From positions 124,001-188,000 of IMG/VR virus record IMGVR_UViG_3300042010_000106: DNA of 64,000 bases; one strand, written 5' to 3'. Below are positions 3,047-42,767 of this stretch, one piece after another. Position numbers and translations under genes: made by a program. Each line of letters starts with the position of its first letter. The first letter of the stretch is position 1. The notes below the pieces were generated by a model that saw nothing but the letters and a program-made list of their open reading frames with translations, was not told the DNA's origin and did not search any database. The DNA is from a virus.

Positions 3047-3367
3047 ATGCAAATGAAATACATCGTTGTTCGCGCAAACGATTTCCGTACAGGCACACAG
3101 CAGTTCGAATTCCCGATCATGTTCCCACATAACATCGTGCACAAAGACATGGCCGATATCACCACGTACGCAACAGGCGACGGTGGCGATTACCGCGTTA
3201 ATCAAGTATTGGGTGCGGGCTTCTGTTCGGTCGGTGTGGATGACAAGGGTAACGCAACTGTAAACTGTTGGGGTCAGAGCGAATCGCTCGAAATCAAATC
3301 GCGTGGCAAGGCAGACGAAGCCGCCTTTATGCGCTGCGCAAATCTGAATTCAACAAGGATTGAGTAA
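3047..3367 (+). CDS. Hypothetical protein
   Basis: 106 residues. ATG 3047 is chosen because GAGG lies about ten bases upstream, inside the end of the previous gene. The sequence alternates strands and turns (MKYIVVRANDFRTGTQQFEF, then INQVLGAGFCSVGVDDKGNA), suggesting a compact beta-rich protein. No family recognised. It overlaps the next start as TAATG. Confidence 0.6.
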   Translation: MQMKYIVVRANDFRTGTQQFEFPIMFPHNIVHKDMADITTYATGDGGDYRVNQVLGAGFCSVGVDDKGNATVNCWGQSESLEIKSRGKADEAAFMRCANLNSTRIE

Positions 3368-4053
3368 TGTTCGAAAAGATTCTGGAAACGCAGGGTTTTA
3401 TCCTTGAAAACGAAATGTGGTATCACCCTAAGTTTCCATGGATTACGTGCACCGGTACACGCACCGATAAAACGGCTGCTATTCGTGGGTTCATGAATAA
3501 ACCGCGTACCGTTCGCGACGAAGAAAGTGCGATTGAAGCAATTGAGCGCTACAAGGTGTGCCCTGACCTAACACGGCAGTACACCTTTGCCGTCGCCACG
3601 TTGACAGAGATTTGCGACGAATTGAATTCGCATTATCCGAACGCTGAATTCAGTTACGTTACGGGCAACAACGGTGTGCCTCTGTTGCAGGTTCGCTATC
3701 CACGTTCCAATCTGACTTCGAATTTTTCGAACTACAACAAATTCATGAGCTTTATGCACAGGACGCGGGCGAAGAATTTCTCGATGTCTTACGTGGAGCT
3801 TGTGGAAGCGTACATGGCAGAGCAACCTGCTGTGACAACACCGTTCGTTAAATCCACTGCTGACACGATCAACATTTTTGCAGATATCAAATGCCTGCGA
3901 AATATCGACTTGTGGAAACTCCGCAACGTGTCCGAAGTGAAGGTTCACAAAATTGTTGCAACGTTCCCGACGTGCCCGCCGTTGCTGGCTTCGGAATTTG
4001 CAGACACTATGTCGCAGACCTTCGTTGAATTTATTTGCCCAAGAAAAGGCTAA
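3367..4053 (+). CDS. Hypothetical protein, member 1 of a proposed divergent paralogue cluster
   Basis: 228 residues. It starts with a short helix and a GF-x-x-E-N-x-x-WYHP hairpin, then a central helix (TLTEICDELNSHYPNAEFSY) followed by strand pairs (GNNGVPLLQVRYP). This plan (N-terminal 'long helix, G, aromatic, strand' unit, then helix plus a G-V-P/S-L-x-x-L strand) recurs in several proteins up to about 10.7 kb. Pairwise identity is low, so the relationship is inferred from motif order. Coupled to the upstream gene by TAATG. Function unknown. Confidence 0.65.
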   Translation: MFEKILETQGFILENEMWYHPKFPWITCTGTRTDKTAAIRGFMNKPRTVRDEESAIEAIERYKVCPDLTRQYTFAVATLTEICDELNSHYPNAEFSYVTGNNGVPLLQVRYPRSNLTSNFSNYNKFMSFMHRTRAKNFSMSYVELVEAYMAEQPAVTTPFVKSTADTINIFADIKCLRNIDLWKLRNVSEVKVHKIVATFPTCPPLLASEFADTMSQTFVEFICPRKG

Positions 4054-4056
4054 GCT

Positions 4057-4809
4057 ATGAACACTGTTCTCTGTAATCGCGTTAAGGCTCTTTGCGAATC
4101 GCTCGGCGGTACATGGGCCATGAATGATTTGGATTGGCTGGAATGCAAGATTGAAGGTCTGCGCGTTTGCATTGGGCCGACTACGGGTATGGTCGAAGTG
4201 AACGAAATCTACGGCAGTAAAATGCCAAGTATTTTTCATCACGGCGATACAGACCTCGCGCTTATCAAGATTACAGAGGTTCATAAAATCGCGAAGGTTC
4301 AGGTTGAGCGCTTCCAACATCTGGTTAATGATGTCGCAGCATTCTTGCGCAGTAAAAAGATTCAGGTAGAAGTGCGCCGTGCCGATGGCGATTACGCAAA
4401 GTTCCTGCTGGGCGACCGCGAATTGTTTAGCCTCGATGCAGATTACTTGCTCGATGGTGGCCCGTACGAACTGCACTTAGGTATCGCTGTTTACGGCGTG
4501 GAAACACTCGACGAAGTTATTGAATGTTTGAACAAGACCACGCAGCAAGACGTGGAAGCGCCATGGATGGTGAAAGGCCCGTACAACAACATTTACTACA
4601 TCGGCGATATTGCCTATCTGATTCCGGCGATGATTCGTCACGGTGTGGAAAACGTTAACCAGCACATTGGCACGTACTGGACAACCAGTGGCGACACGAT
4701 TTTGAATATTTTGCTGGGCAATGAACTGCCGTGCAAAAAGAATTATTTTTCCATCCGTTTTGTTGACGGTGTAATCCCTACAGAGGTTGAGCAAGCATGC
4801 AACTCCTAA
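4057..4809 (+). CDS. Hypothetical protein, member 2 of the proposed paralogue cluster
   Basis: 250 residues. N-terminal unit RVKALCESLGGTWAMNDLDW followed by strands; central unit of a long helix (FQHLVNDVAAFLRSKKIQVE), then AKFLLGDRELFSLDADYLLD, the clearest example of the recurring 'A-x-F-x-L-x-x-x-x-L-F-x-L' pattern. A further helix (YGVETLDEVIECLNK) follows. Unknown function. It overlaps the next gene by 13 bases. Confidence 0.65.
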   Translation: MNTVLCNRVKALCESLGGTWAMNDLDWLECKIEGLRVCIGPTTGMVEVNEIYGSKMPSIFHHGDTDLALIKITEVHKIAKVQVERFQHLVNDVAAFLRSKKIQVEVRRADGDYAKFLLGDRELFSLDADYLLDGGPYELHLGIAVYGVETLDEVIECLNKTTQQDVEAPWMVKGPYNNIYYIGDIAYLIPAMIRHGVENVNQHIGTYWTTSGDTILNILLGNELPCKKNYFSIRFVDGVIPTEVEQACNS

Positions 4810-5540
4810 CCGAAAATGGTTTCATGTTCGACGCCGAAACACAACGCTGGTGGAAAGATCGCGTTAGCGTTCAAGTGTGCGAAATGTTCGCGACCGTTTA
4901 CAGCGACGACGTGTACTCCCCACGCAGAGAACACCTCGACGACAGCGCAGACATCCAGACGGCTATCGACCTCGCCATGGAAGCCAGCGCAGTTCGTCAC
5001 CAGAAAACAATTGATTATGCAGAAGGTGTGAAGGCCGTCTGCCTGCTGAATGCGTTCCCTGTGCTTTACCGCGTGCACAAAAACGAAGCCGTGTTTTTCT
5101 ACAACGGTACGCAAACGTGGCTGACTGACCCAATCTTTTTGTTCGCGCTGGGCATGAATCGCGCTGACGAAATGATGTTCAGAACGCCGGAGTGTATGGT
5201 TTACGCAGAAGAGAATCCGGTCAGTGTTGAACTGCCTGAAATTTTCGATGTGATGCACACGGAAACGAATTACGACATTCACTGCAAAGAAGGTGTGCGC
5301 ACGCATAACCGTGTGAAGGCTGAAGGCAAAACCGTCGTGTATTCCAACATGACCCACGCACTGGCGGAATGTCTGAAGTACGGCGTAGGCAGCATCGGCC
5401 ACCAAGTGGCGCAGATTCAAGTCGAAGACGCACACCACACACAACGCGTTATGCAGATTCTTCGCGAAACAAAATTCCCTGAAGTTCACGCGTTTGCCAT
5501 CACCTTTTTGTCGGAGAATTCCAATGGGACAGTTGCTTGA
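4797..5540 (+). CDS. Hypothetical protein, member 3 of the proposed paralogue cluster
   Basis: 247 residues. It begins MQLLTENGFMFDAETQRWWK, the same 'LL-x-x-x-GF' plus aromatic start as its neighbours. The middle has a helix and a strand pair (FPVLYRVHKNEAVFFYNG). Histidine-rich near the C-terminus (AQIQVEDAHHTQRVMQIL). No catalytic motif. Start 4797 lies inside the previous gene, a normal overlap in this operon. Confidence 0.65.
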   Translation: MQLLTENGFMFDAETQRWWKDRVSVQVCEMFATVYSDDVYSPRREHLDDSADIQTAIDLAMEASAVRHQKTIDYAEGVKAVCLLNAFPVLYRVHKNEAVFFYNGTQTWLTDPIFLFALGMNRADEMMFRTPECMVYAEENPVSVELPEIFDVMHTETNYDIHCKEGVRTHNRVKAEGKTVVYSNMTHALAECLKYGVGSIGHQVAQIQVEDAHHTQRVMQILRETKFPEVHAFAITFLSENSNGTVA

Positions 5541-6330
5541 ACATGCCGCGTTGAAAGACGCGTTGCTCGCCTTGGGTATGACTGAAGGCACCGGTGACGA
5601 TTATTCGTTTTATTTCGGTGAAGTGATTGCCACAATTCAGGGGCGTGTCGCGGTTTTCGAATATTCGTACGAAGAGCTTTACGCTTCCCTTGATTGGGAG
5701 AATTTTGAACCGCGTGACCTGATGGAAAAATACTACCGTCAAAAGGGAGTAAAATCGCCGGAAGCTGTGTTCAAACTGATTTGCTCCAACGCAACAAAAC
5801 GTAAGTGTTTCCAGATGGAATACGCCGACAAAGTTGCAAAGCATTTCGATGCGTGCGGCGTTCCTGTTCAGTATTGCGAAATCGACGGCTATTCGCGGTT
5901 CCGTGTCGATCCTGAATTCGTACGCGGCCCTGAGCCTATTGATCTTTTCCGTATGCAAGTACGTCATGATTTCGGCATGGAATTTTTCTTCGGCGACAGC
6001 AGCATTGTCGTTGACGGTGAAGACGTTGATCGTAACATCAAAGAAGTTTTTTGCGTTGAATCGCTGGGCGACATTTCGCCAGAAAATCCTGTTGATCGTG
6101 TCGATTACTCTTCGACGTACCACTATCGACACATTGTAAATGCGCTGCCTGATATGCTGCGCGTTGGCATCAAAAAGGTTCGCAAAGAAACGGTTGAAAT
6201 CGTCACGGCACTACGCAAGCCAATCACCAATTGCAAAAAGCATTTCCGCCCTGATGTAATCGGCACCATCACCGACTACTGCGTGGATTTCAAAGCATCT
6301 ATTCACCCTCCTAAAAACTGGAACGAATAA
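5524..6330 (+). CDS. Hypothetical protein, member 4 of the proposed paralogue cluster
   Basis: 268 residues. ATG 5524 is preferred to an earlier start because GGAG lies nine bases upstream and the extra ten codons fall inside the preceding gene. Start MGQLLEHAALKDALLALGMT followed by beta strands; central helix (YADKVAKHFDACGVPVQYCE) and a phenylalanine-rich strand region (FGMEFFFGDSSIVVDG). Acidic middle, basic C-terminus. Function unknown. Confidence 0.65.
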   Translation: MGQLLEHAALKDALLALGMTEGTGDDYSFYFGEVIATIQGRVAVFEYSYEELYASLDWENFEPRDLMEKYYRQKGVKSPEAVFKLICSNATKRKCFQMEYADKVAKHFDACGVPVQYCEIDGYSRFRVDPEFVRGPEPIDLFRMQVRHDFGMEFFFGDSSIVVDGEDVDRNIKEVFCVESLGDISPENPVDRVDYSSTYHYRHIVNALPDMLRVGIKKVRKETVEIVTALRKPITNCKKHFRPDVIGTITDYCVDFKASIHPPKNWNE

Positions 6331-7127
6331 TGGATAACGGAATTAAAGAATTGTGCGCACAGGCAGAAGCATACCTGCTTGAAAAAGGTTTCTCGAAAGT
6401 CAACGGCACCACATTGGCGCTCGGCGATATCCGTGTGACCTTACCTGCTGTTGGTCTGCGCAATACATCACGTCGTTTTTCCGTAATGATTCGCGACAAC
6501 GTACAGCGCGGGAAACGCGTAGAAAATCTACGGTACATGCAAAAGCACGTTGAAACCTGCATCGAAATTCGTAACGACTGCATGGATAAATTCAAAGCGT
6601 TTTGCTTGAATGTACAAAGCATTCTGAGTCAGCGCGGGTTGGAGCTGGATCTTAAAATTGAGGCACGTACACGCGCTTCGTTTACGTTGCACGGCACCAG
6701 TCTTTTCGCGCTGCAAGCTTCTTTTGACCACGAAGGCCGTGACCAAAAATTGGTTATGGATATTTGGTGCCCTGACCTCGACGAAGAACTGGAAGTTCCA
6801 GAAGATATCGTCAAGGCTTGCCAGCACGCACATAAATATCGTCGTGGGCAATTGATCAGTGAAGGCACCAAGATTATCACCACTGAACAACCACACGTTT
6901 TCGCCGCAGTCATGCTGGAAAATCCGTGCATCGGTATCGAGAAAAAGTCGTGTGTAGTTCGTGAAGTTTGCGACGATGAAAACATGCAACTCATTCTGAA
7001 TTTCGAAGGTCGTTCGCGAAAGCAGGACATGGTCGTAATCAGCTTTGCAAACGATGTGACTTTGACGCCGCTTGTAGTACGTGAGCCGAAAGTGTTCCGT
7101 GTGCGTGAGGAAGATTGCGATGACTGA
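6330..7127 (+). CDS. Hypothetical protein, member 5 of the proposed paralogue cluster
   Basis: 265 residues. Start helix CAQAEAYLLEKGFSKVNGTT, then strands; a long central helix (MDKFKAFCLNVQSILSQRGL) leading into ASFTLHGTSLFALQASFD, which matches the A-x-F-x-L-x-x-x-x-LF-x-L signature of its neighbours. C-terminal half beta-rich. It starts on the last base of the previous stop (TAATG). No recognisable enzyme motif. Confidence 0.65.
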   Translation: MDNGIKELCAQAEAYLLEKGFSKVNGTTLALGDIRVTLPAVGLRNTSRRFSVMIRDNVQRGKRVENLRYMQKHVETCIEIRNDCMDKFKAFCLNVQSILSQRGLELDLKIEARTRASFTLHGTSLFALQASFDHEGRDQKLVMDIWCPDLDEELEVPEDIVKACQHAHKYRRGQLISEGTKIITTEQPHVFAAVMLENPCIGIEKKSCVVREVCDDENMQLILNFEGRSRKQDMVVISFANDVTLTPLVVREPKVFRVREEDCDD

Positions 7128-8013
7128 GTTTGAAAAGTTCGTAGAATTGATGGGTGCCATCGGTGCTAAAAAGACCTACGATCAGTATTACGAAAAAGAT
7201 TTTGTAGAGCTTTCATTTGATGAAATGCGACTGGCTGGCGTCGTTGTACGTGTTGATGGTTATCACCGCACGGATGTTCACCCTATCGACATCGACCCTA
7301 CTGCCCTCGCGCTGTTGGTTAGCAAGGCAAACGAACACGCTGCAAAATACGTGGGCATTAACACCAAGCTGGCAAACCTCATTGTTGACCAGTACAAAGA
7401 CGCACCGTATGTCCTGCGCATTGAGCAGAAGGGTATTGAAACGAAAGTCGTTGTCAGTGTTCGTCAGAAAGATATGGAATTGAGCCTGCGTAATTCTGAA
7501 ATCTGGAACGACGTGGACGTGCTGAGTTTCCGCGTTCGTTTGCTAGATAACAACGAACTGTTTTTGATTGCCAAGCAAGGCCGTGTTACCCGTCGTCGTT
7601 CGTTCCGGTTGCCTTACGATCCCGTGGCTGAACCACAACGGTTCCTCGACGAAGTTATGCCGTGGTTTGAACATCGACACGAAGGCTGTTTGCGCAAAGC
7701 AACGGTCAGTTTTCCACACACGCTTACCGGCGAGCATCAAACCCGAACGGAATGGTACGAAGTTTACCCCGGTGACGAAGCTGACAAGGCAATCCTCGGT
7801 TTCAGAAACTGTAAAGTAATGATGATCGACACGCTGAAGATTCAACAAGTTGTTGCACGTGACTTGTTCGGCGTTGTGAATGGTTTGTACGACTATCACT
7901 TGTCCAAAGACATTACAGAAACAGTTTTCGCTTTCCGGTTGCCCGACGACTTCGAACCGAATGGACGTGAGTTTGCAGAAATCAGCATGCTTGCACCTAT
8001 GTGCGTAGGGTAA
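7120..8013 (+). CDS. Hypothetical protein, member 6 of the proposed paralogue cluster
   Basis: 297 residues, the longest of the cluster. ATG 7120 has GAGGAAG upstream and overlaps the previous stop. Start MTEFEKFVELMGAIGAKKTY plus strands; central helix and strand unit (NLIVDQYKDAPYVLRIEQKG); arginine-rich stretch KQGRVTRRRSFRLPYDP. Followed by a 54-base gap before the Nudix gene, the first real intergenic space in this operon, so it may close a transcriptional subunit. Confidence 0.65.
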   Translation: MTEFEKFVELMGAIGAKKTYDQYYEKDFVELSFDEMRLAGVVVRVDGYHRTDVHPIDIDPTALALLVSKANEHAAKYVGINTKLANLIVDQYKDAPYVLRIEQKGIETKVVVSVRQKDMELSLRNSEIWNDVDVLSFRVRLLDNNELFLIAKQGRVTRRRSFRLPYDPVAEPQRFLDEVMPWFEHRHEGCLRKATVSFPHTLTGEHQTRTEWYEVYPGDEADKAILGFRNCKVMMIDTLKIQQVVARDLFGVVNGLYDYHLSKDITETVFAFRLPDDFEPNGREFAEISMLAPMCVG

Positions 8014-8067
8014 TTTAAAAGGGAAGGGGAGACACAGAGTTTTCCCAACTTTTGCACAGGGTTTACA

Positions 8068-8499
8068 ATGCAAGTTCAAATCGCAATCGCTCGTAACATT
8101 CCAACCAAAACGCGTTTCCAATCTGGCTGCATTCCTTACCGTGATGTTGACGGCGTGCGCCAAGTGTTGTTGGTCAAGAAGCTGAAGAAAGGCGCGTGGT
8201 GGGGCTTCACAAAAGGTGGTGTTGAAAAAGGTATCACCAAGAAAGAAAACGCGGCAAAAGAGTGCATGGAAGAAGCGGGCGTGTACGGTAAAGTGACCAA
8301 GAAACTTGGGCAGTTCACCTACATCAAAGATTCTGCTTTCCAGATCGTCGATATGTACGCGATGGAATTCCGTGAAGAAGCAGAACATTGGGATGAAAAA
8401 ACCGTACGTAAACGCAAGTGGTTCACCCTTGCAGAAGCTCGCGACAAGTTGAGTCGTGAACATCACAACTTCCTGACTGAAATTCGCAAACTCGCGTAA
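8068..8499 (+). CDS. Nudix hydrolase family protein
   Basis: 143 residues. The Nudix box is at residues 50-72: GGVEKGITKKENAAKECMEE then AGV, matching G-x5-E-x7-R-E-U-x-E-E-x-G-U in spacing and in the metal-binding EC-M-EE core (Lys for the usual Arg). It departs at the first conserved Glu, where Ile stands; the Glu at box position 4 is present. Nudix enzymes hydrolyse nucleoside diphosphates linked to another group: dNTPs, NADH, Ap4A or capped RNA. The substrate here is unknown; phages use such enzymes for nucleotide-pool cleaning or RNA decapping. AGGG lies seven bases before the ATG. Confidence 0.88.
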   Translation: MQVQIAIARNIPTKTRFQSGCIPYRDVDGVRQVLLVKKLKKGAWWGFTKGGVEKGITKKENAAKECMEEAGVYGKVTKKLGQFTYIKDSAFQIVDMYAMEFREEAEHWDEKTVRKRKWFTLAEARDKLSREHHNFLTEIRKLA

Positions 8500-8507
8500 G
8501 GTAAAAC

Positions 8508-8885
8508 ATGAACTGGATGACGCCCCACGATATTTATTTGAACAGTGCGCAGGTTGCTTTGCACGAAGCGGTAAAAGCGTCGGGCGCCACCAGTGTGCAT
8601 GTGGAAAGTACAACAAACGGAATCGGTAACGAACCAAACATCGCTAACGTAACGTGGGCCAGTGTTCGTGTGATAAATATTTCCCGGCGTGTCGCTGTTA
8701 TGGCACACTATTTCACGAACAACAAATTCAAAATTGAAACTGGTTGGGATAACTCGGAAAGTGAATTGATCGCTGACCGGATGCGTGCCCGCCTGTTGGA
8801 AATCCAGATAGGCTACGAAAATGAACGAAGACCTGATTACTCAATTTTGCCAGCTCCTGCCAACAAAGTTCTTGCGCCGATCTAA
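8508..8885 (+). CDS. Hypothetical protein
   Basis: 125 residues, starting eight bases after the Nudix gene. It begins with a helix (NSAQVALHEAVKASGATSVH), continues with strands and ends in a helix (ESELIADRMRARLLEIQIGY) and a short proline-containing tail. No family recognised. The last 65 bases overlap the following gene in another frame, unusually long for this operon. Confidence 0.6.
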   Translation: MNWMTPHDIYLNSAQVALHEAVKASGATSVHVESTTNGIGNEPNIANVTWASVRVINISRRVAVMAHYFTNNKFKIETGWDNSESELIADRMRARLLEIQIGYENERRPDYSILPAPANKVLAPI

Positions 8886-9312
8886 CGAAAACTTTGTGAT
8901 CATTTGTACGCCGTATCTGCGTGCGGAATTTGGTCGCAATGGTTTGGTTGACATCGCGTTCACTGGTTCGGAAAAGCTGCGTTTCTACGCAGATGATGAA
9001 ATTGATTTCAAAGAGCTGCGCCGCCGTGTTATCAATTCTCACGGTGACTATCGCGTGATGGCTACGGCGATTAAAGAGCGCTATGTTCTGATGCGTCCGC
9101 ACTTCCCAAAACGTTTCAAAACTTTTGCAGTGCATGGGACTGAAGGACAAAGCTTGACCATCACCATTGCCGACTTCGAAACGAAAGAAGCCATTGCACG
9201 GCTTTACGTGAACGATTGGAAATGCGAAATCGGTATCACGATGCTCGGCCCGCATTTAGACCTGCATACGCCAATGCGCGTGGCCTACAACAAATCGAGA
9301 GACGGTAAATGA
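8821..9312 (+). CDS. Hypothetical protein, possible shorter member of the paralogue cluster
   Basis: 163 residues from ATG 8821. Start MNEDLITQFCQLLPTKFLRR, then strand NFVIICTPYLRAEFG and helical segments; similar in plan to the N-terminal unit of its neighbours but shorter. The start overlaps the previous gene by 65 bases; no good in-frame ATG exists soon after, so 8821 is the best choice despite the overlap. It overlaps the next gene by four bases (ATGA). Confidence 0.6.
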   Translation: MNEDLITQFCQLLPTKFLRRSNENFVIICTPYLRAEFGRNGLVDIAFTGSEKLRFYADDEIDFKELRRRVINSHGDYRVMATAIKERYVLMRPHFPKRFKTFAVHGTEGQSLTITIADFETKEAIARLYVNDWKCEIGITMLGPHLDLHTPMRVAYNKSRDGK

Positions 9313-9998
9313 ATCGCGAAGAATTTCTGGTTAAGGCAAGCGCCTACATCGGCGTTGCAGTTGGCATGCGTGATAATGAAATGTGCATCGACGGCCCGCA
9401 CGTAATTATCGAAATGGCAAACAACGAAGACAGCCTGTTTATCCAGACGCCGGAACGCACTGACTTTCTGGAAACGGAAAATGGCGACTGGACGATTTGC
9501 TACGAAGAGCTGGTTAAACTGACTGACGAAGCACGAATTGACTTTGATAAAAATGTGCTTGCTTTGCGTGCTGAAATTGCAGAACATTTGGCCGCGATCA
9601 ATCCTGCGCTGCAAATCAGCGTGTTGGAAAGCGTAGAAAAATGTCACCCTAAAGCGACGTTCTTTTTGCATGACACTGGTGTGGCTTTGTACGCGTTCAC
9701 CATGTACGGCGAGCATGCACACCACGAGGCGCACAATTCCGGTGACGGCTGGTCGATTCGTCCTGAATACATTCATCGCCGCAAATGGCCTACGGGCGAA
9801 ACAGGCTCGATGGAAGTAGACGAAAACGGTTTCGCAATGTGTGACGATATTCAGGGTTTGTTGGGTAGCAATATCCGCTACAACATCAATGAATTCATCA
9901 CTACGATTATCACGAACAAGCCGTTGCCCAACAACGATACGTACCGTGAATTGACAACGCCCCGCTACCGCAAGTTTGTCGATTTCGAGGTGCTGTAA
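9309..9998 (+). CDS. Hypothetical protein, member of the proposed paralogue cluster
   Basis: 229 residues. N-terminal unit MNREEFLVKASAYIGVAVGM with strands, central helix LALRAEIAEHLAAINPALQI followed by ATFFLHDTGVALYAFTMYGE, again the A-x-F-x-L-x-x-x-x-(L)-x-L pattern. Histidine-rich loop after it (GEHAHHEAHNSGDGW). Coupled by ATGA upstream and TAATG downstream. Function unknown. Confidence 0.65.
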   Translation: MNREEFLVKASAYIGVAVGMRDNEMCIDGPHVIIEMANNEDSLFIQTPERTDFLETENGDWTICYEELVKLTDEARIDFDKNVLALRAEIAEHLAAINPALQISVLESVEKCHPKATFFLHDTGVALYAFTMYGEHAHHEAHNSGDGWSIRPEYIHRRKWPTGETGSMEVDENGFAMCDDIQGLLGSNIRYNINEFITTIITNKPLPNNDTYRELTTPRYRKFVDFEVL

Positions 9999-10735
9999 TG
10001 GATTTTGAAAAGCTGTTGGCTGCATTGGAATCTTTGTTGGGCGGCAAGTTTTATTTCCGTGAAGCAGAAGATGACAATCTGTACTGCGACGTTGGCCGAC
10101 ACTTCCTGAAAACACCGAACGGGAACGTGACCATTTACGGAAAGGCCCGCATCCGTTTTGAAGGTAATGGAAACTACCATGACAACATGGAGTTTTTGGA
10201 TTCTTTCGAAGACGTTTATGATTTCGTTGTACGCAACATGTTCGAACACAAGGTCAAGTTCGAAACAAAAGTTTTGCTGCTGCGCGAGGCTGTTGAAACG
10301 ATGCAGAAACTGAATTGCATCGGCGCTCGTTTCGTTGAAGAGTTTGACACAATCAGTCCTATTGTTCGCGTTGAAATTGGCGGCGTTCCGCTCTTCTGCT
10401 TGATTCCAAAATTCCGTACCATTTTCGCGCAGTTCAATGAAGACGATTCGTTCGATGATACGGGCAAAGCCTCTTACAATGGCTTTGACCTGCGTGTCTC
10501 CGTCGTTGCAGAGTCTGGCCGTCAACTGCCGTCCGGTTTTCATGTGTTCCCGAATGGTGTACGTGACTGTTACGCACCGTTTGGTTTGCGTGCGTTCCTC
10601 ACACCGGGTTGCATTGTCACAGCGCGTACACTCACACTGAAGAAAGCCATTCAGGAAGAGCATTCTGCACACGCTTTTTACGACAGTTTGTGCAGTGAAG
10701 AAACTGTAAAGGTTATCGAGTACACCGTACCCTAA
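9998..10735 (+). CDS. Hypothetical protein, last member of the proposed paralogue cluster
   Basis: 245 residues. Start MDFEKLLAALESLLGGKFYF, then strands; central helix LLLREAVETMQKLNCIGARF leading to IVRVEIGGVPLFCLIPKFRT, with the recurring strand plus P-L-F-x-L motif. Overlaps the previous stop as TAATG. After it the operon changes to genes of other types, so it marks the right end of the cluster. Confidence 0.65.
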   Translation: MDFEKLLAALESLLGGKFYFREAEDDNLYCDVGRHFLKTPNGNVTIYGKARIRFEGNGNYHDNMEFLDSFEDVYDFVVRNMFEHKVKFETKVLLLREAVETMQKLNCIGARFVEEFDTISPIVRVEIGGVPLFCLIPKFRTIFAQFNEDDSFDDTGKASYNGFDLRVSVVAESGRQLPSGFHVFPNGVRDCYAPFGLRAFLTPGCIVTARTLTLKKAIQEEHSAHAFYDSLCSEETVKVIEYTVP

Positions 10736-11339: not shown

Positions 11340-11935
11340 TGAAAGAATCCCGACAAACGCAATTACTCAATGGCGTATCTACGCTAGCGCAGAAAACGTT
11401 TCCGTTTGTTCCCATTCAGGAATCGTGGTCGTGCACAGACATTCACCGCGCAATGACAAAAGGCGGTGCCACAAGTACAGCCTTTCGCGTTGTGCGTGCG
11501 TGCTTGGGTGAAATGAAAGATGCTGGTTTGATTCGTGAGCCAAAGCCTGATTTTTTCCAGCGCGAAGCCGTGAAACACAAGACTGTCGAACAGCCATATT
11601 TGCGTGATGCAACACCCGCAGGCTACACGCCTAACGGTATGATCATTCGCGAAGAAAAGTTTGTTCCAAAAAATCCCCCGCAAGGAAATAAAGACGTGTC
11701 CAATAAAGCCCCGGCTGTTGTTGCATCTGAAGCCAAAACGGTTAGCGCTGTCGAGCTGCTGACTGAACTGGCTGTAGACTTCGGTGACTTTGCCGAACAA
11801 GTTGCAAAAAGTCACAAAGCTTTCGCTTCACGTCTGGTTGATATCTCGGCACAGATCGAAAATGATTTGTCCTCGAATTCAGAAGAGCTGGAAAAACTGC
11901 GCTCCCTGAAATCCCTGCTGAAATCGCTTGGGTAA
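11339..11935 (+). CDS. Winged-helix-like protein with C-terminal coiled coil
   Basis: 198 residues. Residues about 8-63 look like a winged helix-turn-helix: helix LLNGVSTLAQKTF, then WSCTDIHRAMTKGGATSTAF and RVVRACLGEMKDAGLIREPK, the latter resembling a recognition helix and wing (L-x-x-M-x-x-A-G-L-I). A polar linker (about 70-140) is followed by a heptad-like helical region ending EELEKLRSLKSLLKSLG, suitable for oligomerisation. A DNA-binding regulator is plausible but not proven. TAATG coupling on both sides. Confidence 0.6.
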   Translation: MKESRQTQLLNGVSTLAQKTFPFVPIQESWSCTDIHRAMTKGGATSTAFRVVRACLGEMKDAGLIREPKPDFFQREAVKHKTVEQPYLRDATPAGYTPNGMIIREEKFVPKNPPQGNKDVSNKAPAVVASEAKTVSAVELLTELAVDFGDFAEQVAKSHKAFASRLVDISAQIENDLSSNSEELEKLRSLKSLLKSLG

Positions 11936-12261
11936 TGGCAGGAATGTTTTCTACCGGCACAGTCATAATTGGCCGTGTCGGTGATGATCCGTTGCCCGGT
12001 GTGCTAGACGTTCGTGTTGATCGCAAAACGATTTTCGGCAACCCCAATCCGAAAGGCGTTAACGGTACACGGAAAGAAGTCTGCCAGATGTACAAGGTCT
12101 ACGCGGTTAAGCGTATGGCAAAACGTGGTAAGTATTTCCGGCGTATTGAAAAGCTACGGGCACTTTACAACGCCGGTCAAAACATTCGGTTACTTTGTCA
12201 TTGCTTTCCGAAGCAGTGCCACGGCCTAACTGTGAAGGATTTAATTGAGGGTCGTTTGTGA
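11935..12261 (+). CDS. DUF4326-like protein
   Basis: 108 residues. The features of DUF4326 are visible in order: VIIGR near the start, DRKTIFGNPNPKG (normally WGNPF), a stretch with Y-x-x-Y-x-x-x, and RLLCHCFPKQCHGLTVKDLI, the conserved C-x-C-x-P-x-x-C-H-G motif near the end. The Cys/His set suggests metal binding; the family's biochemical role is not established to my knowledge, though it recurs in phages. GTGA overlap with the next gene. Confidence 0.82.
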   Translation: MAGMFSTGTVIIGRVGDDPLPGVLDVRVDRKTIFGNPNPKGVNGTRKEVCQMYKVYAVKRMAKRGKYFRRIEKLRALYNAGQNIRLLCHCFPKQCHGLTVKDLIEGRL

Positions 12262-12509
12262 AGAAGAAAATTAAAGCGATTCGTCACGCAGATGTTGGGC
12301 CGGGTAAATACTGGATGTTTGATTCAGATCCTGAGTACCAGCACGAAGACCCATCATCCGTTACGATTGTCGAGAAAGACGGCTGCACTTACGTAATCGG
12401 TGCAAATGCGGGCCTCGACGATTCAGACATTGCACACATTGACGACATTGTTGATACAGTCGTTTTCGTTCCCATCGTGCCACCTAAATATTCGGAGTTG
12501 GAATTTTGA
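12258..12509 (+). CDS. Small 'GxYW' family protein, copy 1
   Basis: 83 residues, GTG start at 12258 overlapping the previous TGA. Shared plan with the next two genes: near the start, H-A-D-V-G-P-G-K-Y-W-M-F; an acidic middle with a strand (CTYVIGANAG); near the end, V-V-F-V-P-I-V followed by Y-S-E-L-E-F. Three consecutive genes with the same opening and closing motifs suggest tandem duplication. No function known. Confidence 0.65.
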   Translation: MKKKIKAIRHADVGPGKYWMFDSDPEYQHEDPSSVTIVEKDGCTYVIGANAGLDDSDIAHIDDIVDTVVFVPIVPPKYSELEF

Positions 12510-12736
12510 AAGGGTTTAAATTCGAAGAATGTCCGATGGGTTTTTACTGGTGTTTCAATATCCAACGCCCGGAAGACAGACCCAATCTGGTCGAGCTGTA
12601 TCAGGCCGTGAATGATGGCGCTGTTTACTTCGCTGCGATGGGCCGCGCATGGCGTGAACCAGCTAAAGCACTGAAGCTGGAAATTCTGCGTTTCGTTCCG
12701 GTGGTCGAGCCGATGTTTGGAGAACTGGATTTATGA
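12506..12736 (+). CDS. Small 'GxYW' family protein, copy 2
   Basis: 76 residues, TTG start at 12506 overlapping the previous TGA as TTGA. Opening FEECPMGFYWCFNIQRPEDR and closing EILRFVPVVEPMFGELDL line up with copies 1 and 3 (G-x-Y-W near residue 12; R/V-F-V-P-V/I near residue 62; G/S-E-L-D/E-L/F at the end, shared with copy 1). An uncommon start codon, but the coupling and the paralogy support it. Confidence 0.65.
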   Translation: MKGFKFEECPMGFYWCFNIQRPEDRPNLVELYQAVNDGAVYFAAMGRAWREPAKALKLEILRFVPVVEPMFGELDL

Positions 12737-13008
12737 GCGGCGCATTAACGTTCGAAGAAATCGAACACGGCCTTTACTGGATGACGCAAACGAATTTACC
12801 GGATGCACAAGCTTTGCGCGTTCGATACTTCGGTAATTATTTGCATTTCATAGACAACCGTAACACCGTGGCTGTTAGCGATGTGGAATTGCACCTGCTG
12901 CGTTTCGTGCCAATCACAGAACACAACGTCGGTCGGCCCGGTACAGGTTCTGGCCCCGGTGGTGCTGTGACCATCTGTGATGAACATTACGAATTGGGCG
13001 AGCAATGA
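12733..13008 (+). CDS. Small 'GxYW' family protein, copy 3
   Basis: 91 residues, ATG 12733 overlapping the previous TGA. Opening LTFEEIEHGLYWMTQTNLPD and LHLLRFVPITEHN towards the end match copies 1 and 2; the C-terminal 25 residues add a glycine-rich segment (RPGTGSGPGGAVTI) absent from the others. Probably the same fold with a short extension. Confidence 0.65.
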   Translation: MSGALTFEEIEHGLYWMTQTNLPDAQALRVRYFGNYLHFIDNRNTVAVSDVELHLLRFVPITEHNVGRPGTGSGPGGAVTICDEHYELGEQ

Positions 13009-13250
13009 ACGTTCTGAATTGGGATGAACTGGAAGACGGCAAAGCCTACCTGAAGCACGATATTGACGAAGGGTATACTTCAATGTGTCGCGCTCGGCAT
13101 ACGTGCGGTGGTCGCTATCAATACATTCTGGTCGAAGGCGATGTCGTTCCTAAATTCGCGATCAAATACAAAGACTGTGTTTTTGTCGAAGTTGAAATGC
13201 CTTCACGATCCGATTGGGCCTTGGCAATCCTGCAAAAAGATTCACAGTAA
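13005..13250 (+). CDS. Small hypothetical protein, possible divergent fourth copy
   Basis: 81 residues, coupled to copy 3 by ATGA. The opening NWDELEDGKAYLKHD can be lined up with F-E-E-x-x-x-G-x-Y-W and the later strand CVFVEVEMP with the F-V-P strand, but the tryptophan of G-x-Y-W is missing, so membership is uncertain. Ends 49 bases before the next gene. Confidence 0.6.
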   Translation: MNVLNWDELEDGKAYLKHDIDEGYTSMCRARHTCGGRYQYILVEGDVVPKFAIKYKDCVFVEVEMPSRSDWALAILQKDSQ

Positions 13251-13299
13251 TTTCTAGGTATCATCCACTACACAGGCCGGTCGTAAGATCGAGAAATGA

Positions 13300-13545
13300 A
13301 TGCTCTCACTAAATAAAAAACAAGCGCTTAAAATGCGCGGCGAACTGCTCTCACTTAGCGTTGTTGCACTTGATGGGAAAACGTACGGTTACGAATTGCT
13401 TCACCAGTCTGGAAAGATATTCACGCTGTGGCGGATTGATTCACCGAACCGCCTGACGTGTTCTCAATTGGATACTGCGAAAGCGCTCGCCGACTATTTG
13501 AAGTTTGACAGGTTCGCGATTCGCCTACAGGAAATCACTGCATGA
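13300..13545 (+). CDS. Hypothetical protein
   Basis: 81 residues from ATG 13300, preceded by GAGAA. Basic N-terminus (LNKKQALKMRGELLSLSVVA), strands in the middle and a helix near the end (QLDTAKALADYLKFDRF). The 49 bases in front contain no obvious promoter. No family recognised. Overlaps the next gene as ATGA. Confidence 0.6.
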   Translation: MLSLNKKQALKMRGELLSLSVVALDGKTYGYELLHQSGKIFTLWRIDSPNRLTCSQLDTAKALADYLKFDRFAIRLQEITA

Positions 13546-14135
13546 GATTGTTTTTATCCTTGTCGCAACTTGATCGCTTGTTGACTACCGGGCGAATTGA
13601 TTTGCTGCCTGCGTACATCGACAAAGGCGTTACGTATTACTCGCACAATTGCATGCTTCCTGTGGCGATTGCGGAATTGAATTGTCCTGAGCCTTTCATT
13701 GTGCACAATCAGCCATTTGTTGAAGCCGGTGCGTGGTTGACTGCTGTGCACACGTGCGTAATGCCGGAGACAACGAATTTTCACCCTATGTTCGTGTACC
13801 CGGATTTCGACACGATGGTGGCTCACGACATGCGTACGGTGGTCAACGCCTTACATCGTGCCATGAGTCGCCCTGTGGCGCGTTCTAACGACCTTCAGGC
13901 GCTCTCTGTGGCCTTCCTACAGGGTTGCACTGACGAAGAGGTGGCGACGTACCACGCGGTGTTCACTTCGTTCATTGAACTGAATCCGAAATTCGTACGC
14001 ATGGCGTGGAACGCAAACGATATTCCCAACGCCGACAAATTCAAAACGCTTTGCTTGCAGTTACCATCGTCCGGCATGGGCATTTGGGAATCCGCAGCAC
14101 AACACATTTTCAAGAAGTGGACGCTGTACACGTAG
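13542..14135 (+). CDS. Hypothetical protein, last gene of the left operon
   Basis: 197 residues, alpha/beta, with several Cys and His (YYSHNCMLPVAIAELNCPEP; VHTCVMPETTNFHP). No recognised motif. It is followed directly by a strong bidirectional terminator, so it closes the plus-strand operon that fills the first 14 kb. Confidence 0.65.
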   Translation: MRLFLSLSQLDRLLTTGRIDLLPAYIDKGVTYYSHNCMLPVAIAELNCPEPFIVHNQPFVEAGAWLTAVHTCVMPETTNFHPMFVYPDFDTMVAHDMRTVVNALHRAMSRPVARSNDLQALSVAFLQGCTDEEVATYHAVFTSFIELNPKFVRMAWNANDIPNADKFKTLCLQLPSSGMGIWESAAQHIFKKWTLYT

Positions 14136-14142
14136 CGCAAAC

Positions 14143-14187
14143 GAAAAAAGCCCCGAATCCAATTACGGAAACGGGGCTTTTTTTTTG
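14143..14187. terminator. Bidirectional rho-independent terminator at a convergent junction
   Basis: A-rich left arm plus GCCCCG (14150-14155) pairs with CGGGGC (14172-14177), followed by nine T on the plus strand; the A run before the left arm gives the T run on the minus strand. It lies between the converging genes ending at 14135 (+) and 14196 (-). It is nearly the same sequence as the terminator at 60,621-60,665. Confidence 0.9.
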
Positions 14188-14195
14188 CTTCGAAT

Positions 14196-14639
14196 TTACT
14201 TCAGAATCAGGCGCCGATTGGCACCCTTCACAAACGATATGTGAATGTAGTTGTCACGCATCTGCAAAATGTCGAATTCTTCCGACTGCAAATATTCGTA
14301 AATCATTTCGAGGTCATTGGACACGATAGAAACTGCGTGCCCGGTGACGTGTTGTTTTTGCTGGATGTAATCAAACCAGTTTTTATCGCTGCATGTCAGT
14401 TTGTTCTGACGGCACCAATCGAAGAAACCCGGTTTGCTGTATTCGCGTTCCAGTGTAGGCGAGCGATACCAACTGACGATCCGAAAGTTGTAAGCGTTGC
14501 GCAATGGTTCCAGCACAAACTCTGCCATGTCCTCGGCAGCGCGCAGCACATTGCGGGGCGGCGTATTGTCGATTTTGTTTTTAATCGCAACGAGGTCGAA
14601 ACCCACGTCAAGATCGGTATAGTTTGGACTGATTTTCAT
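14196..14639 (-). CDS. Peptidase M15-like protein (endolysin candidate) lacking a zinc ligand
   Basis: 147 residues. The fold signature of phage M15 peptidases is visible: FRIVSWYRSPTLEREY (S-G-Y-R-S-P-x-L-N), QKQHVTGHAVSIVSND (S-x-H-x-x-G-x-A-x-D), EEFDILQMRDNYIHISFVKG and NRR near the end. In active enzymes His and Asp of the second motif and His of the last bind zinc. Here the Asp position is Ser, while both His remain. It is the last gene of a lysis-type cassette; AAGGA precedes the ATG. It may be an altered or inactive peptidase, a virion-associated domain, or use another ligand. Confidence 0.75.
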   Translation of the reverse strand: MKISPNYTDLDVGFDLVAIKNKIDNTPPRNVLRAAEDMAEFVLEPLRNAYNFRIVSWYRSPTLEREYSKPGFFDWCRQNKLTCSDKNWFDYIQQKQHVTGHAVSIVSNDLEMIYEYLQSEEFDILQMRDNYIHISFVKGANRRLILK

Positions 14640-14650
14640 AACGTTTTCCT

Positions 14651-15097
14651 TTACAACGCAAGGCCGATAATGGCAATCGCTTGCCAGAATACTTTTTCAA
14701 TTGCGAACCACGTTTTATCGCGTTCGTGTTCTTGCTGTTCCTTCAGATACAGCGCGTAATTTTCGTTGGCGCGTACCTCCTGTTTCAGCGCAATATCTAC
14801 GACCGTGTTGTGTTGCTGGATCGTTTGATTATGCGCTACCACAAGAAGATTTAAGCCTTCGGTATTTGCTTTCGATTGCCGTACATAATCCGTAAGCTTT
14901 CGCGTGTTATTCAGATCGAGTACGGCAACTTCTTTTCCGTCAACTTGCGCTTGGCTTATCGCTGGTTTGTCCGGCAGGGACGCTTCCAACGTAAGCTTTT
15001 CCAATTTCTGCAATGGCAGTGGCGGTGGTGGATTCCACTGTTGGGACGTTTGACATCCCGGCACCATGAGAATCAACAATAACAGGATTAGCCGCAT
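14651..15097 (-). CDS. Lipoprotein, spanin candidate (u-spanin or o-spanin)
   Basis: 148 residues from the ATG at 15097; the open frame runs further upstream but MRLILLLLILMVPGCQTS is a clear lipoprotein signal with lipobox VPGC, so this start is chosen. A proline run (NPPPPLPLQK) follows, as in many outer-membrane spanins. The middle is helical and polar, and the last about 18 residues (FAIEKVFWQAIAIIGLAL) are hydrophobic. Lipoprotein at one end and a membrane segment at the other is the layout of unimolecular spanins such as T1 gp11, which fuse inner and outer membranes at lysis. If the C-terminal segment is too short to span, it would be an o-spanin. Confidence 0.72.
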   Translation of the reverse strand: MRLILLLLILMVPGCQTSQQWNPPPPLPLQKLEKLTLEASLPDKPAISQAQVDGKEVAVLDLNNTRKLTDYVRQSKANTEGLNLLVVAHNQTIQQHNTVVDIALKQEVRANENYALYLKEQQEHERDKTWFAIEKVFWQAIAIIGLAL

Positions 15098-15443
15098 TTT
15101 CTGTACTCGCTTGTAAGCGTTCCAGCGCGGTGCGTACTGCCAATGGCATTGGTGGTTTACCAATCATGGAATCAGCAGCAATACCGATTGCGAAATAAGT
15201 AATCTTTCCCACACCCGGTTCGATGATCACAGTCGTCAGAAACGTTGCGAACGCACCAGCAAAAACCCAAAAGGTAGATTTAACATCGTCGAGCCAATAC
15301 GACGACAGTTTGATTCCCTCTTTCTTGCATTTCCAAATCCAGTTTACGATCACACCTGCAAGGGTGCAAAAGAAAAAACCGAACGCGTCATCGAGGGGAA
15401 TTTCGATGGCTTTTTCAATCGCTTTTACAAACCATTCCATCAT
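14940..15443 (-). CDS. Holin candidate, two to three transmembrane segments
   Basis: 167 residues. Hydrophobic segments at about 21-38 (GFFFCTLAGVIVNWIW) and 58-92 (TFWVFAGAFATFLTTVII and ITYFAIGIAADSMIG) flank a basic loop (KCKKEGIKLSSYWLDDVK). The C-terminal 60 residues are polar and flexible. Size, membrane topology and position between two other membrane lysis genes and the M15-like gene fit a holin that times inner-membrane permeabilisation. Two ATG codons stand in tandem at 15438-15443. The 3' end overlaps the lipoprotein gene by 158 bases, as spanin and holin genes often do. Confidence 0.65.
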   Translation of the reverse strand: MMEWFVKAIEKAIEIPLDDAFGFFFCTLAGVIVNWIWKCKKEGIKLSSYWLDDVKSTFWVFAGAFATFLTTVIIEPGVGKITYFAIGIAADSMIGKPPMPLAVRTALERLQASTENAANPVIVDSHGAGMSNVPTVESTTATAIAEIGKAYVGSVPAGQTSDKPSAS

Positions 15444-25937: not shown

Positions 25938-26984
25938 TTACGGTGCTGTGATACCGCCGCCAGATTTCAGTGCGACAATACGCATGCCGGTGTTATTCGG
26001 CCCGTTCGCCAGAAGCGAAACGTAATTGCGTGGTGGATCAGCTTCGTTGTAAACCTTCAGTGGAACGTCGGTGTTTTCCGAAACAACGTCACCACTGGTG
26101 TAACCGAGCAAATCCAGTTCGTAGGTGTATGCGTAACGAGTGGTGTTCAAACGCGACGGGAACGAAACCACATAGCGGTTGCCTTCGGAAATTGCTACCT
26201 GTTCCGCAATGTTGATAATTGCGTTGTTGTATTCGGTATCAATGCCCGCATCCACTGCATCGGAAGGACGCATAACGTCAGATTCACGAACGGTGAAACG
26301 TTGAATCTTTTCAGCGGTGGAAAACATTGCAAATACTGGTGCTTTACCAGTGATAACAACGGCACCGGAAACACGATCAACCGGACGCTGTGCAACAACC
26401 CACGAAACCGATTTCGCGCCGAGGTCAGAAGTGAAGTCTTCCCAAACGCACAGAACAAAACCACGTTCTGCAATGCAGAGGTAGTAGGTCATTGGTGCAG
26501 AATCGGAAATGTCAGCGGAACCGACAACTACACGCGAAGTACGGTTAATAAAACCGTCTTCTGGTTTGGTTGGATCAGGAGCTTTATCCGCTGGCGTAGT
26601 GCCTTTGGTGTAGCGACCGCCGACAACGCCGATGGGGCCAGCCAGAACCTTTGTGGTGGTGCCTGTGGTAGTCCAAGAAAGCGAACCATCGGTACGCAAA
26701 CTTTGGTTAGAACCGAGAACCATACCGGCAGTGTGCTTATCGAAAACTTCGATTTGTACGCGCCATGGTTGCTTTGCAGGAAGTGCAGGGTTATTCAACG
26801 GGTCAACCGCAATACCTGCTTCCAACATCACTTTGAATTTGGCGCGCCCGGTTGCATCTACAGGCGGAACCCAAGGCACCGGATTGATTACAGAAAAACC
26901 GTTGTCCGTAAGGTCGGCAACAACGGCGAGCATCAGTTCACCCACGTGGGTATAACCGCTGCGACGGATGGAAATTCCAGCCAT
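25938..26984 (-). CDS. Virion structural protein, tandem paralogue B
   Basis: 348 residues. MAGISIRRSGYTHVGELMLA, QPWRVQIEVFDKHTAGMVLG, YRYAYTYELDLLGYTSGDVV-type segment and NNTGMRIVALKSGGGITAP each correspond to segments in the gene at 27001-28170 in the same order. The conserved SRLNT-x-RYAYTYELD-x-x-GYTS core marks a close pair. Found together among fibre genes, so probably an abundant structural or decoration component; exact role unknown. Confidence 0.78.
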   Translation of the reverse strand: MAGISIRRSGYTHVGELMLAVVADLTDNGFSVINPVPWVPPVDATGRAKFKVMLEAGIAVDPLNNPALPAKQPWRVQIEVFDKHTAGMVLGSNQSLRTDGSLSWTTTGTTTKVLAGPIGVVGGRYTKGTTPADKAPDPTKPEDGFINRTSRVVVGSADISDSAPMTYYLCIAERGFVLCVWEDFTSDLGAKSVSWVVAQRPVDRVSGAVVITGKAPVFAMFSTAEKIQRFTVRESDVMRPSDAVDAGIDTEYNNAIINIAEQVAISEGNRYVVSFPSRLNTTRYAYTYELDLLGYTSGDVVSENTDVPLKVYNEADPPRNYVSLLANGPNNTGMRIVALKSGGGITAP

Positions 26985-27000
26985 GATTTATTCCCCTTGA

Positions 27001-28170
27001 TTAAGGTGCAGGAGCAGCAATGCCGCCGCCTTCTTTGAGCGCAACAATTCGCATGCCGTTGTTGTTCAGAATGTTCGCGTGCATACCAATGTATTTACGC
27101 GGAGTTTCTTCACCGTACAGAGTTTGCGGAACTTCTGTGGTGCCACCGACAACGGTTGCAGACGTGTAGCCGATCATGTCCAGTTCGTAGGTGTATGCGT
27201 AACGCGGAGTGTTCAGGCGCGACGGATAGTTAACGATGTACTGGTTGTTTTCGGAAACACCGATTTGTTTTTTGTCGTTGATGATTGCGGTTGTATCTTT
27301 GGTATCCAGAACAGCCGAAGTAATTGTGGAAGCGTCAACCAAATCGGCTTCACGAACCACGAAACGGTTGATTTGGTTGCCCACTGCGTTAACGCAAAAT
27401 ACAGGAGCTTTACCTTCAACAACAACGATGCCTGTATCGCGATGCACAGGACGTTGAACCAGAACCCACGAAAAATCTGTACCGCTTACGTTTGTGCCGG
27501 CGCCTTGCCAAATCGACAAGTAGAAACCACGTGGAGTGATTGCCAGATAGTACGACATTGGGTAGGTCGCGCTAACGTCTTTGGTTGGATCAGTCGGGAA
27601 AACTGGTGGTGTTTCGATTTGCGATTGGGAGTTACCAACAATCGAATCAACCCAAACTTTGGTACGACGGTTGATGAAACCTTCTGTTTTGTTTTTCCAA
27701 TGCGGCTGGAAAAGACCAGCATTTTGGAAATACGGTTTGTCAGCGGTTTGCGTCAAACGATACGGGGTGTAATCTTCACCGACAATCCCGCGTGCACCGA
27801 TAATACGAACGGTGGTCGTGGTGATTTCAGTAACGGAATCGGTTGTGTAAGGCAGCGAACCGTCGTTAGGCAATGCAGTCGGCGAACCTGCAAACATACC
27901 CATTGTGGCGTTGTCAGTTACGGAAAACGCAACGCGCCACGGTTGATTCGGAGTAGCGCCGGGAATCAATGGATTCAATGGGTCAACGCTTGGCCCAGCT
28001 TCCAAAGTAACGCTGAATTTTTCAGCAGTTGCGCCAACAGGTTTTACGTAGGCGCCAGTTCCATCGACAGGGAAAATGGCTTTGAAACCATTCGCCAACA
28101 TGTCGTCAATTACAGCGAGAGTGATTTTACCGGCTGTGGTAAAACCCTCTTTGCGGATTGCAATACCCAT
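27001..28170 (-). CDS. Virion structural protein, tandem paralogue A
   Basis: 389 residues. MGIAIRKEGFTTAGKITLAV, QPWRVAFSVTDNATMGMFAG, SRLNTPRYAYTYELDMIGYT and NNNGMRIVALKEGGGIAAP parallel the adjacent paralogue; differences concentrate in the loop at about 140-170 (LTQTADKPYFQNAGLFQPHW). Two neighbouring copies allow different surfaces on a shared fold. Ends 16 bases before paralogue B. Confidence 0.78.
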   Translation of the reverse strand: MGIAIRKEGFTTAGKITLAVIDDMLANGFKAIFPVDGTGAYVKPVGATAEKFSVTLEAGPSVDPLNPLIPGATPNQPWRVAFSVTDNATMGMFAGSPTALPNDGSLPYTTDSVTEITTTTVRIIGARGIVGEDYTPYRLTQTADKPYFQNAGLFQPHWKNKTEGFINRRTKVWVDSIVGNSQSQIETPPVFPTDPTKDVSATYPMSYYLAITPRGFYLSIWQGAGTNVSGTDFSWVLVQRPVHRDTGIVVVEGKAPVFCVNAVGNQINRFVVREADLVDASTITSAVLDTKDTTAIINDKKQIGVSENNQYIVNYPSRLNTPRYAYTYELDMIGYTSATVVGGTTEVPQTLYGEETPRKYIGMHANILNNNGMRIVALKEGGGIAAPAP

Positions 28171-35346: not shown

Positions 35347-35362
35347 AAAAATATTCCTTAAA

Positions 35363-35388
35363 ATTGCCCTCCATTTCTGAAGGGCGAA
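35363..35388 (-). terminator. Probable weak terminator
   Basis: Minus strand GCCCT and AGGGC pair around a ten-base loop, with AATTTT after the stem. It lies in the gap between the genes at 35393 and 35346. The stem is only five pairs, so partial termination is more likely. Confidence 0.45.
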
Positions 35389-35392
35389 TTGA

Positions 35393-38300: not shown

Positions 38301-39004
38301 TTTACTTCGCCCAATTTGATTCGCCACCGCGCATTCGCAGGAGCATCAACACGAACGGTTAGGAAATTGTTTGCAGGACGCGGAACACCGCAATCAACTT
38401 CACGCAATTCAGGTGGTTCGGCATTGTAGAAAATGTTGAAGTAATTGCCGCTGGTTTTGCTATCACCAAGCAATTCGCAACCGTGATAAATACGGAAACG
38501 AACACCGGGATCTAATTCAAGTGCGCTAACGTCAATTGCACCCGATGCAGAACCAGCCCAAACCAACATTTCATTTATTTCTGCTGTTTCACCATACAAC
38601 GTAACGGGCAATGCCTCGGCTACAGCGTTTGGCAGCAATGGTGCGGTTGCAAAGAAACGACCGCCAGCCACATCAAAATTTGGTGTGTGTCCTGTATATG
38701 TTTTCGGTGCCAATCCGTCGCAGGTTGAAACCAAATAGCCAGTTGGGCCACCGGTTTTAAATTCCCCGCTATCAAAATCTCCCGCGTAACCCGGCCAGCA
38801 TTCAACCATTTCTTCAGGTGGGCAATAGTCAACGCCGCTATCACATTCAATCGTTAACCAATATTCATTTGAACCATGGCGAACGCGCAAATCGTTAACC
38901 GGATCAATTCGAAACCACGTCCCATCATCCTGATAAACATTCCATTCACTTTCACAAATGTCCAGATTGGCATCTTGTGGAGTGCGTATGGTCAACTGAC
39001 TCAT
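35393..39004 (-). CDS. Large virion protein with four PA14-like modules and Cys-bracketed domains
   Basis: 1,203 residues from ATG 39004 (GAAGGA upstream; a longer frame is possible but less likely). The first 580 residues hold Cys-bracketed beta domains similar to those of the gene at 40271. Four PA14-like modules follow at about 594-690, 811-910, 965-1055 and 1100-1195; each has G-x/I-Y-T/Y-x-x-x-x-x-x-D-D/G-x-x-x-x-Y/V-D/N-C ([80 protein letters not shown]). PA14 domains often bind sugars, so a receptor-binding role is inferred. Confidence 0.8.
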
Positions 39005-39044
39005 AGCAATTTCCTTCGGTTTTAATATGTTTAAATTACCGAAA

Positions 39045-39078
39045 AACAACGAAAGGGGCGCAAAGGCCCCTTTAATTG
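39045..39078 (-). terminator. Rho-independent terminator after a collagen-like gene
   Basis: AAAGGGGC (39052-39059) pairs exactly with GCCCCTTT (39066-39073) around a six-base loop; on the minus strand CGTTGTTTTT follows. It separates the collagen-like gene at 39101 from the PA14-like gene. Confidence 0.8.
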
Positions 39079-39100
39079 TGTAGCTTTTTACAAACGTTTA

Positions 39101-39619: not shown

Positions 39620-39631
39620 AAAAATGCTCCT

Positions 39632-40258: not shown

Positions 40259-40270
40259 TTCTGCATTCCT

Positions 40271-42757: not shown

Positions 42758-42767
42758 TCAATTCCCC

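Follow-up and report, generated by a model that had tools for sequence, protein, structure and literature searches.

A family of fast-diverging paralogs in an orphan gene array of a jumbo phage related to Pseudomonas phages HRDY3 and Lu11

Much of every jumbo-phage genome consists of rows of small unknown genes, which tend to be taken for unrelated orphans. There is a precedent for an expanded gene family in such a phage, as Bacillus phage G carries a lineage-specific expansion of a zinc-ribbon protein that amounts to about 35 copies (PMC7824862). The subject of this report is an array of nine genes (positions 3367-10735, plus strand) in a 64,000-nucleotide stretch of viral DNA, hereafter the window, which comprises positions 124001-188000 of a 312,325-base jumbo phage record (IMG/VR IMGVR_UViG_3300042010_000106). 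Like the zinc-ribbon proteins of phage G, at least part of this array is an expanded paralog family in a jumbo phage, although the protein type is unrelated and the copies in phage G are far more numerous. The nearest named kin of the window phage are Pseudomonas phages HRDY3 and Lu11, the latter of which forms one group of jumbo phages with PaBG and NCTB (PMC7412058). An earlier note, made from the window sequence, proposed that the nine genes are a rapidly diverged paralog family in one operon. We find strong evidence of kinship for five of the genes and moderate evidence for a sixth, while two are weakly attached and one is unsupported. The array is read here as an old, fast-evolving family of soluble binding proteins encoded in one operon and directed at putative host targets, an explanation to which we assign a probability of roughly 0.4.

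The closest known counterparts are uncharacterized proteins of Lu11. By sequence profile, Lu11 gp281, gp280, gp271, gp270 and gp267 belong to the same family, and gp281 and gp280 do so by predicted fold as well. The Lu11 array differs in that its proteins share very little identity with the members in the window, are annotated only as hypothetical, and are present in fewer copies between the ortholog of open reading frame (ORF) 3047 and a gene for a Nudix hydrolase. As the earlier note had supposed, the family appears to be undescribed: no relative of any array member was found in Pfam, PHROG, PADLOC or PDB, and no description was found in the literature. IMG/VR scans with the single proteins 9309 and 4057 (genes are named by their first position) likewise returned no relative. 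The family was also undetected in the Erwinia, PaBG and NCTB phages, where an empty answer proves little.

All nine ORFs were found at the proposed starts, and they are tightly packed, with overlaps mostly of 1-17 nt. They do not run without interruption as had been claimed, since the Nudix hydrolase gene (8068-8499, plus strand; PF00293, E 5e-11), which is not a family member, and a small ORF without a Pfam or PHROG match (8508-8885, plus strand) lie between 7120 and 8821. Six array ORFs precede the Nudix gene, and three (8821, 9309 and 9998) follow it and ORF 8508. The Nudix protein is 64-66% identical to its counterparts in Lu11, HRDY3 and an IMG/VR record designated G001, and its gene served as a synteny anchor across the four phages; in all of them, proteins of 200-300 aa flank it on either side. 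Coordinates in relatives are those of the compared loci (HRDY3, L002; Lu11, L003; G001, L005). A further Nudix-like gene, 32% identical to that of the array, occurs at positions 1254-1703 of locus L006, and a second Nudix gene is annotated in Lu11 too. The window has no copy of the middle/late promoter word of Lu11, and its sigma-70-like sites are fewer than chance would give.

Direct comparison within the array was uninformative. All-versus-all BLAST and phmmer searches gave no significant match, the best being 4057 versus 6330 (E 0.015, in register). The very low identity between members claimed previously was thereby borne out, and the window alone could not settle whether the proteins are related. 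Profile searches placed the family in the three related phages as well, and paralogy within single genomes was significant there for HRDY3 4125-4982 (E 3e-5), Lu11 4291-5088 (E 2e-7) and G001 716-1543 (E 3e-6). A profile of what we term subfamily A was built from ten proteins of these three phages, with zero window sequences, and several hundred proteins were searched with it. It recovered 6330 (6330-7127, plus strand, 265 aa) at E 1.4e-12 and 4057 (4057-4809, plus strand, 250 aa) at E 6.9e-12 in hmmsearch. Next came 4797 (4797-5540, plus strand, 247 aa) at E 0.1, which reached E 2e-4 in an iterative hidden Markov model (HMM). When motif order was scored semi-globally over the whole length of 207 proteins, with shuffles as the null, the same three genes took ranks 1-3 (z of 10.3 for 6330, 8.5 for 4057 and 6.8 for 4797), and the next protein scored 4.1. 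A whole-genome search with a ten-member alignment from which HRDY3 had been left out recovered three genes each in the window record, G001 and HRDY3, and four in Lu11. One 119-aa NCTB protein (L017_16367) that was drawn in by the iterated HMM was judged to be drift and was excluded, and profiles of sub-domains alone were too short to discriminate.

Mean pairwise identity in subfamily A is 17%, and among the three window members it is 12-14%. The motif order described in the earlier note recurs in register in the 13-member alignment, that is, where it could be tested. In the N-terminal L-x3-G-F motif, L16 is kept in 13 of 13 members, G20 in 10 and F21 in 12, and the central helix and its ensuing strands with -L-F-x-L recur in register. 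A C-terminal block that the earlier description did not include is also in register (I-x-T-x3-P-x2-F ... YG ... D ... LL ... Y-x2-I-x-F).

A second subfamily, B, is formed by 9309 (9309-9998, plus strand, 229 aa) and 9998 (9998-10735, plus strand, 245 aa), which are mutual best or near-best matches along with genes that follow the Nudix gene in other phages. The best single matches of 9309 are G001 11161 and 9998, and that of 9998 is 9309. When a two-protein B profile from G001 and HRDY3 was run against about 205 proteins, the top three places went to Lu11 gene 12457, 9998 and 9309, in that order. When HRDY3 was searched with an alignment free of its own sequences, two B genes were found at about 1e-6, although the orthologs that they have in G001 make this test weaker than the first. 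Profile-profile comparison linked the subfamilies with a score of 28.5, columns 1-152 of A aligning with columns 1-146 of B, start to start and in register. The null for such scores came from the same region: its unrelated ortholog groups, compared in 78 pairs, reached at most 22.9, around a mean of 14.4 with a standard deviation of 2.7. Block shuffles of B all fell far short of the A-B score. A further group of genes beyond the Nudix gene (HRDY3 14594-15301, G001 12230-12946 and Lu11 13246-14280) is collinear with B at a score of 28.2, and judging from sequence it may be another branch of the family.

The remaining four genes are less firmly attached. With the 13-member A profile, 5524 (5524-6330, plus strand, 268 aa) ranks first; its hhalign score against A is 26.3, collinear over residues 99-236 (138 residues) and above all 78 unrelated pairs, making it a probable member nearest to subfamily A. 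Candidate membership is suggested for 3367 (3367-4053, plus strand, 228 aa), with a weak affinity to B, and for 7120 (7120-8013, plus strand, 297 aa), with a weak affinity to A. The former scores 21.3 against B over residues 46-222, a value reached by none of 25 block shuffles and by 3 of the 78 unrelated pairs. The latter scores 19.6 against A with residues 101-144 in register, which beats the shuffles but is also reached by a few unrelated pairs. Membership of 8821 (8821-9312, plus strand, 163 aa) is unsupported, as it rose above the null with none of the profiles tried. Its start is uncertain, since the 163-aa version shares 65 nt with ORF 8508, and starting from the internal ATG at position 8896 would give 138 aa.

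Kinship may be limited to the five or six genes that were detected, with 3367, 7120 and 8821 being unrelated accessory genes of like size. The lack of any profile signal for 8821 favors this, as do the scores of 3367 and 7120, which fall within the upper tail of unrelated pairs; on the other hand, both of the latter are in register when aligned to the profiles, and they exceed all block shuffles. We consider this restricted family to be nearly an even bet. Profile-profile comparison upholds the proposed relationship for A with B and for 5524 with A, leaves 3367 and 7120 borderline, and gives nothing for 8821. Graded accordingly, the alignments argue strongly for 4057, 6330 and 4797, strongly for 9309 and 9998 as a second subfamily, moderately for 5524, weakly for 7120 and 3367, and not at all for 8821.

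An AlphaFold (AF2) model of 6330, generated from a ten-sequence alignment, had a mean predicted local distance difference test score (pLDDT) of 74.1 and a predicted template modeling score (pTM) of 0.65. It consists of a helix at residues 2-18, short strands between 22 and 64, a helix at 67-101, strands at 107-154, a helix at 157-165, strands at 175-184, a helix at 188-197, a strand at 200-213, a helix at 217-223 and a strand at 229-239. The central helix and the subsequent strand pair of the plan first proposed correspond to residues 67-101 and 107-135. Foldseek comparison of this model with predicted viral structures matched I1TQT2 (266 aa; E 1.4e-12, template modeling score [TM] 0.71), I1TQT1 (278 aa; E 3.6e-8, TM 0.46) and A0A8S5UG47 of Myoviridae sp. 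ctshb19 (267 aa; E 6.4e-9, TM 0.64). On the basis of length, I1TQT2 and I1TQT1 are equated with LU11_gp281 and LU11_gp280, respectively. Among PDB structures, Foldseek found no match with an E below 0.1, and PDB sequences searched by profile likewise gave none. The top PDB match, Mom of phage Mu (GNAT-like, PDB 8bv8), was weak (E 0.1, TM 0.18), and the family is without the acetyl-CoA-binding motif. A GNAT acetyltransferase or Mom identity was rejected, given a best Foldseek E of 0.1 at TM 0.18-0.20 and the absence of the cofactor loop Q/R-x-x-G-x-G/A from 13 of 13 subfamily A members. The model of 9998, based on five sequences, reached a pLDDT of 36 and had no meaningful Foldseek matches; the succession of helices and strands in it is like that of 6330, but at such confidence this counts for nothing. 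The expectation of a common fold was borne out for 6330 through its match to separately predicted Lu11 proteins. A shared scaffold and pattern of change are seen in subfamily A, whereas the kinship of B comes from sequence profiles and its fold is a putative extension of that of A.

The family is set apart from its surroundings by its divergence. Of 29 ortholog pairs compared between HRDY3 and G001, the five that belong to the family occupy the bottom five places in conservation (rank-sum p 8e-6), with identities of 26-33% compared with a median of 63% for the remaining pairs and 92% for the adjoining Nudix gene. Copy number varies too: the slot from the ORF 3047 ortholog to the Nudix gene holds six ORFs of such size in the window phage, two in Lu11, and one each in HRDY3 and G001. 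In a tree with long branches and weak support at deep forks, 4057 groups with genes that occupy a different slot in the other phages, and 4797 and 6330 group with the slot genes. This suggests paralogs of long standing that have been gained, lost and moved from slot to slot, rather than freshly amplified in place. The expansion by duplication that the earlier note envisaged is supported in this form, with tree and slot positions pointing to old turnover and away from a recent run of duplications.

Such variation in slot occupancy and copy number would also be expected of a real family that is free of host conflict, composed of weakly constrained accessory proteins that duplicate, drift and vanish, and the restriction of conservation to core residues would fit it as well. 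All four phages, however, keep the ORFs intact, closely spaced and at full length even though mean identity is about 17%, which requires lasting purifying selection on the scaffold. We regard this account as unlikely, if still worth serious attention.

Residue patterns bear on function. In subfamily A, the residues L, V, I, F and G account for most of the columns common to at least 7 of the 13 members, and no array protein has a 19-residue segment with a mean hydropathy above 1.6, from which the proteins appear to be soluble. With core and turn residues conserved and the surface free to vary, binding is likelier than catalysis. Charge is not conserved, the isoelectric point (pI) of members lying anywhere between 4.75 and 9.3. 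Several members are acidic (pI 4.8-5.5) and an Arc-like regulator gene lies within the same strand block, as might be expected of regulators, nucleic-acid mimics or other binders of nucleic acid or the transcription machinery; yet the full spread of pI fits a DNA mimic poorly, and the DNA-binding families of Pfam and PHROG match no member. We judge such a role to be quite improbable. A DNA-mimic anti-restriction protein was specifically rejected, because consistently strong negative charge is lacking. The lysis and structural genes that adjoin the end of the array's strand block on the opposite strand raise the alternative of virion or assembly components, or adaptors of phage machinery, co-diverging with phage partners. 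Jumbo phages often carry paralogous virion proteins. The array genes of the window, Lu11 and HRDY3, however, neighbor Arc-like regulators and the Nudix gene rather than structural genes, and they are annotated as hypothetical whereas others nearby carry virion structural annotation, which leaves this alternative improbable.

To return to the preferred explanation of a soluble binding family with host targets, the proteins probably bind bacterial proteins and may sabotage them. We infer a host factor as the target from the speed of change together with the variation in copy number. An anti-defense or host-facing role is plausible, as it would fit the extreme divergence, the copy-number variation and the absence of conserved catalytic residues; the PADLOC anti-phage defense models matched no array protein. 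Several points weigh against this explanation. No known anti-defense gene is found among the neighbors in the window, and a usable structure model was obtained for one of the nine array proteins (6330). Rapid change may also stem from relaxed constraint, and close relatives whose synonymous sites are unsaturated, as needed to measure selection, were not found; IMG/VR loci L004 and L005 are identical, so that between them there is no population variation for a selection test. T184 and D216, the most widely kept polar positions in A, are each retained in 9 of 13 members and may mark a weak catalytic or ligand-binding site.

Each protein would be built on one scaffold, in which an N-terminal helix with strands is followed by a long central helix plus beta-meander and, at the C-terminus, by an alpha/beta block. 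Each paralog would then act as a small non-catalytic binder that uses its variable surface to seize a host factor, for example a defense component or a takeover target, and duplicates would specialize and diverge in an arms race in which the hydrophobic core alone is retained. In its most far-reaching form, this proposal would make an undescribed phage fold a variable, general-purpose scaffold for binding. One ancestor would have given rise to both subfamilies, to almost all of the nine genes and to more genes beyond the Nudix gene, and each copy would neutralize a different host target; we consider that form rather unlikely.

Other loci of the window were noted in passing. Tandem small ORFs at 12258-13250 (83, 76, 91 and 81 aa), at least the first three of which have YW near the N-terminus and FVP-I/V near the C-terminus, suggest another small paralog row, although a protein search with the first of them found only itself among seven phage records. 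A DUF4326 domain protein (PF14216, E 9e-11) is encoded at 11935-12261. The 215-aa protein at 191-838 has an IF-2 N-terminal domain (PF04760, E 4.7e-9), which is unexpected for a phage, and is possibly aimed at translation. On the minus strand, two adjoining genes at 25938-28170 with 44% mutual identity are a clear tandem duplication, and within 33331-43463 the ORFs 33331, 39101, 39632 and 42768 have tail-fiber-like repeated segments in common.

A large part of one row of apparent orphans is shown here to be a single hidden family, recoverable only by joining synteny to profiles from a handful of related phages; other orphan arrays could be approached likewise. If the proteins are indeed host-targeting binders, such arrays would provide ready-made sets of paralogs for finding new host targets.

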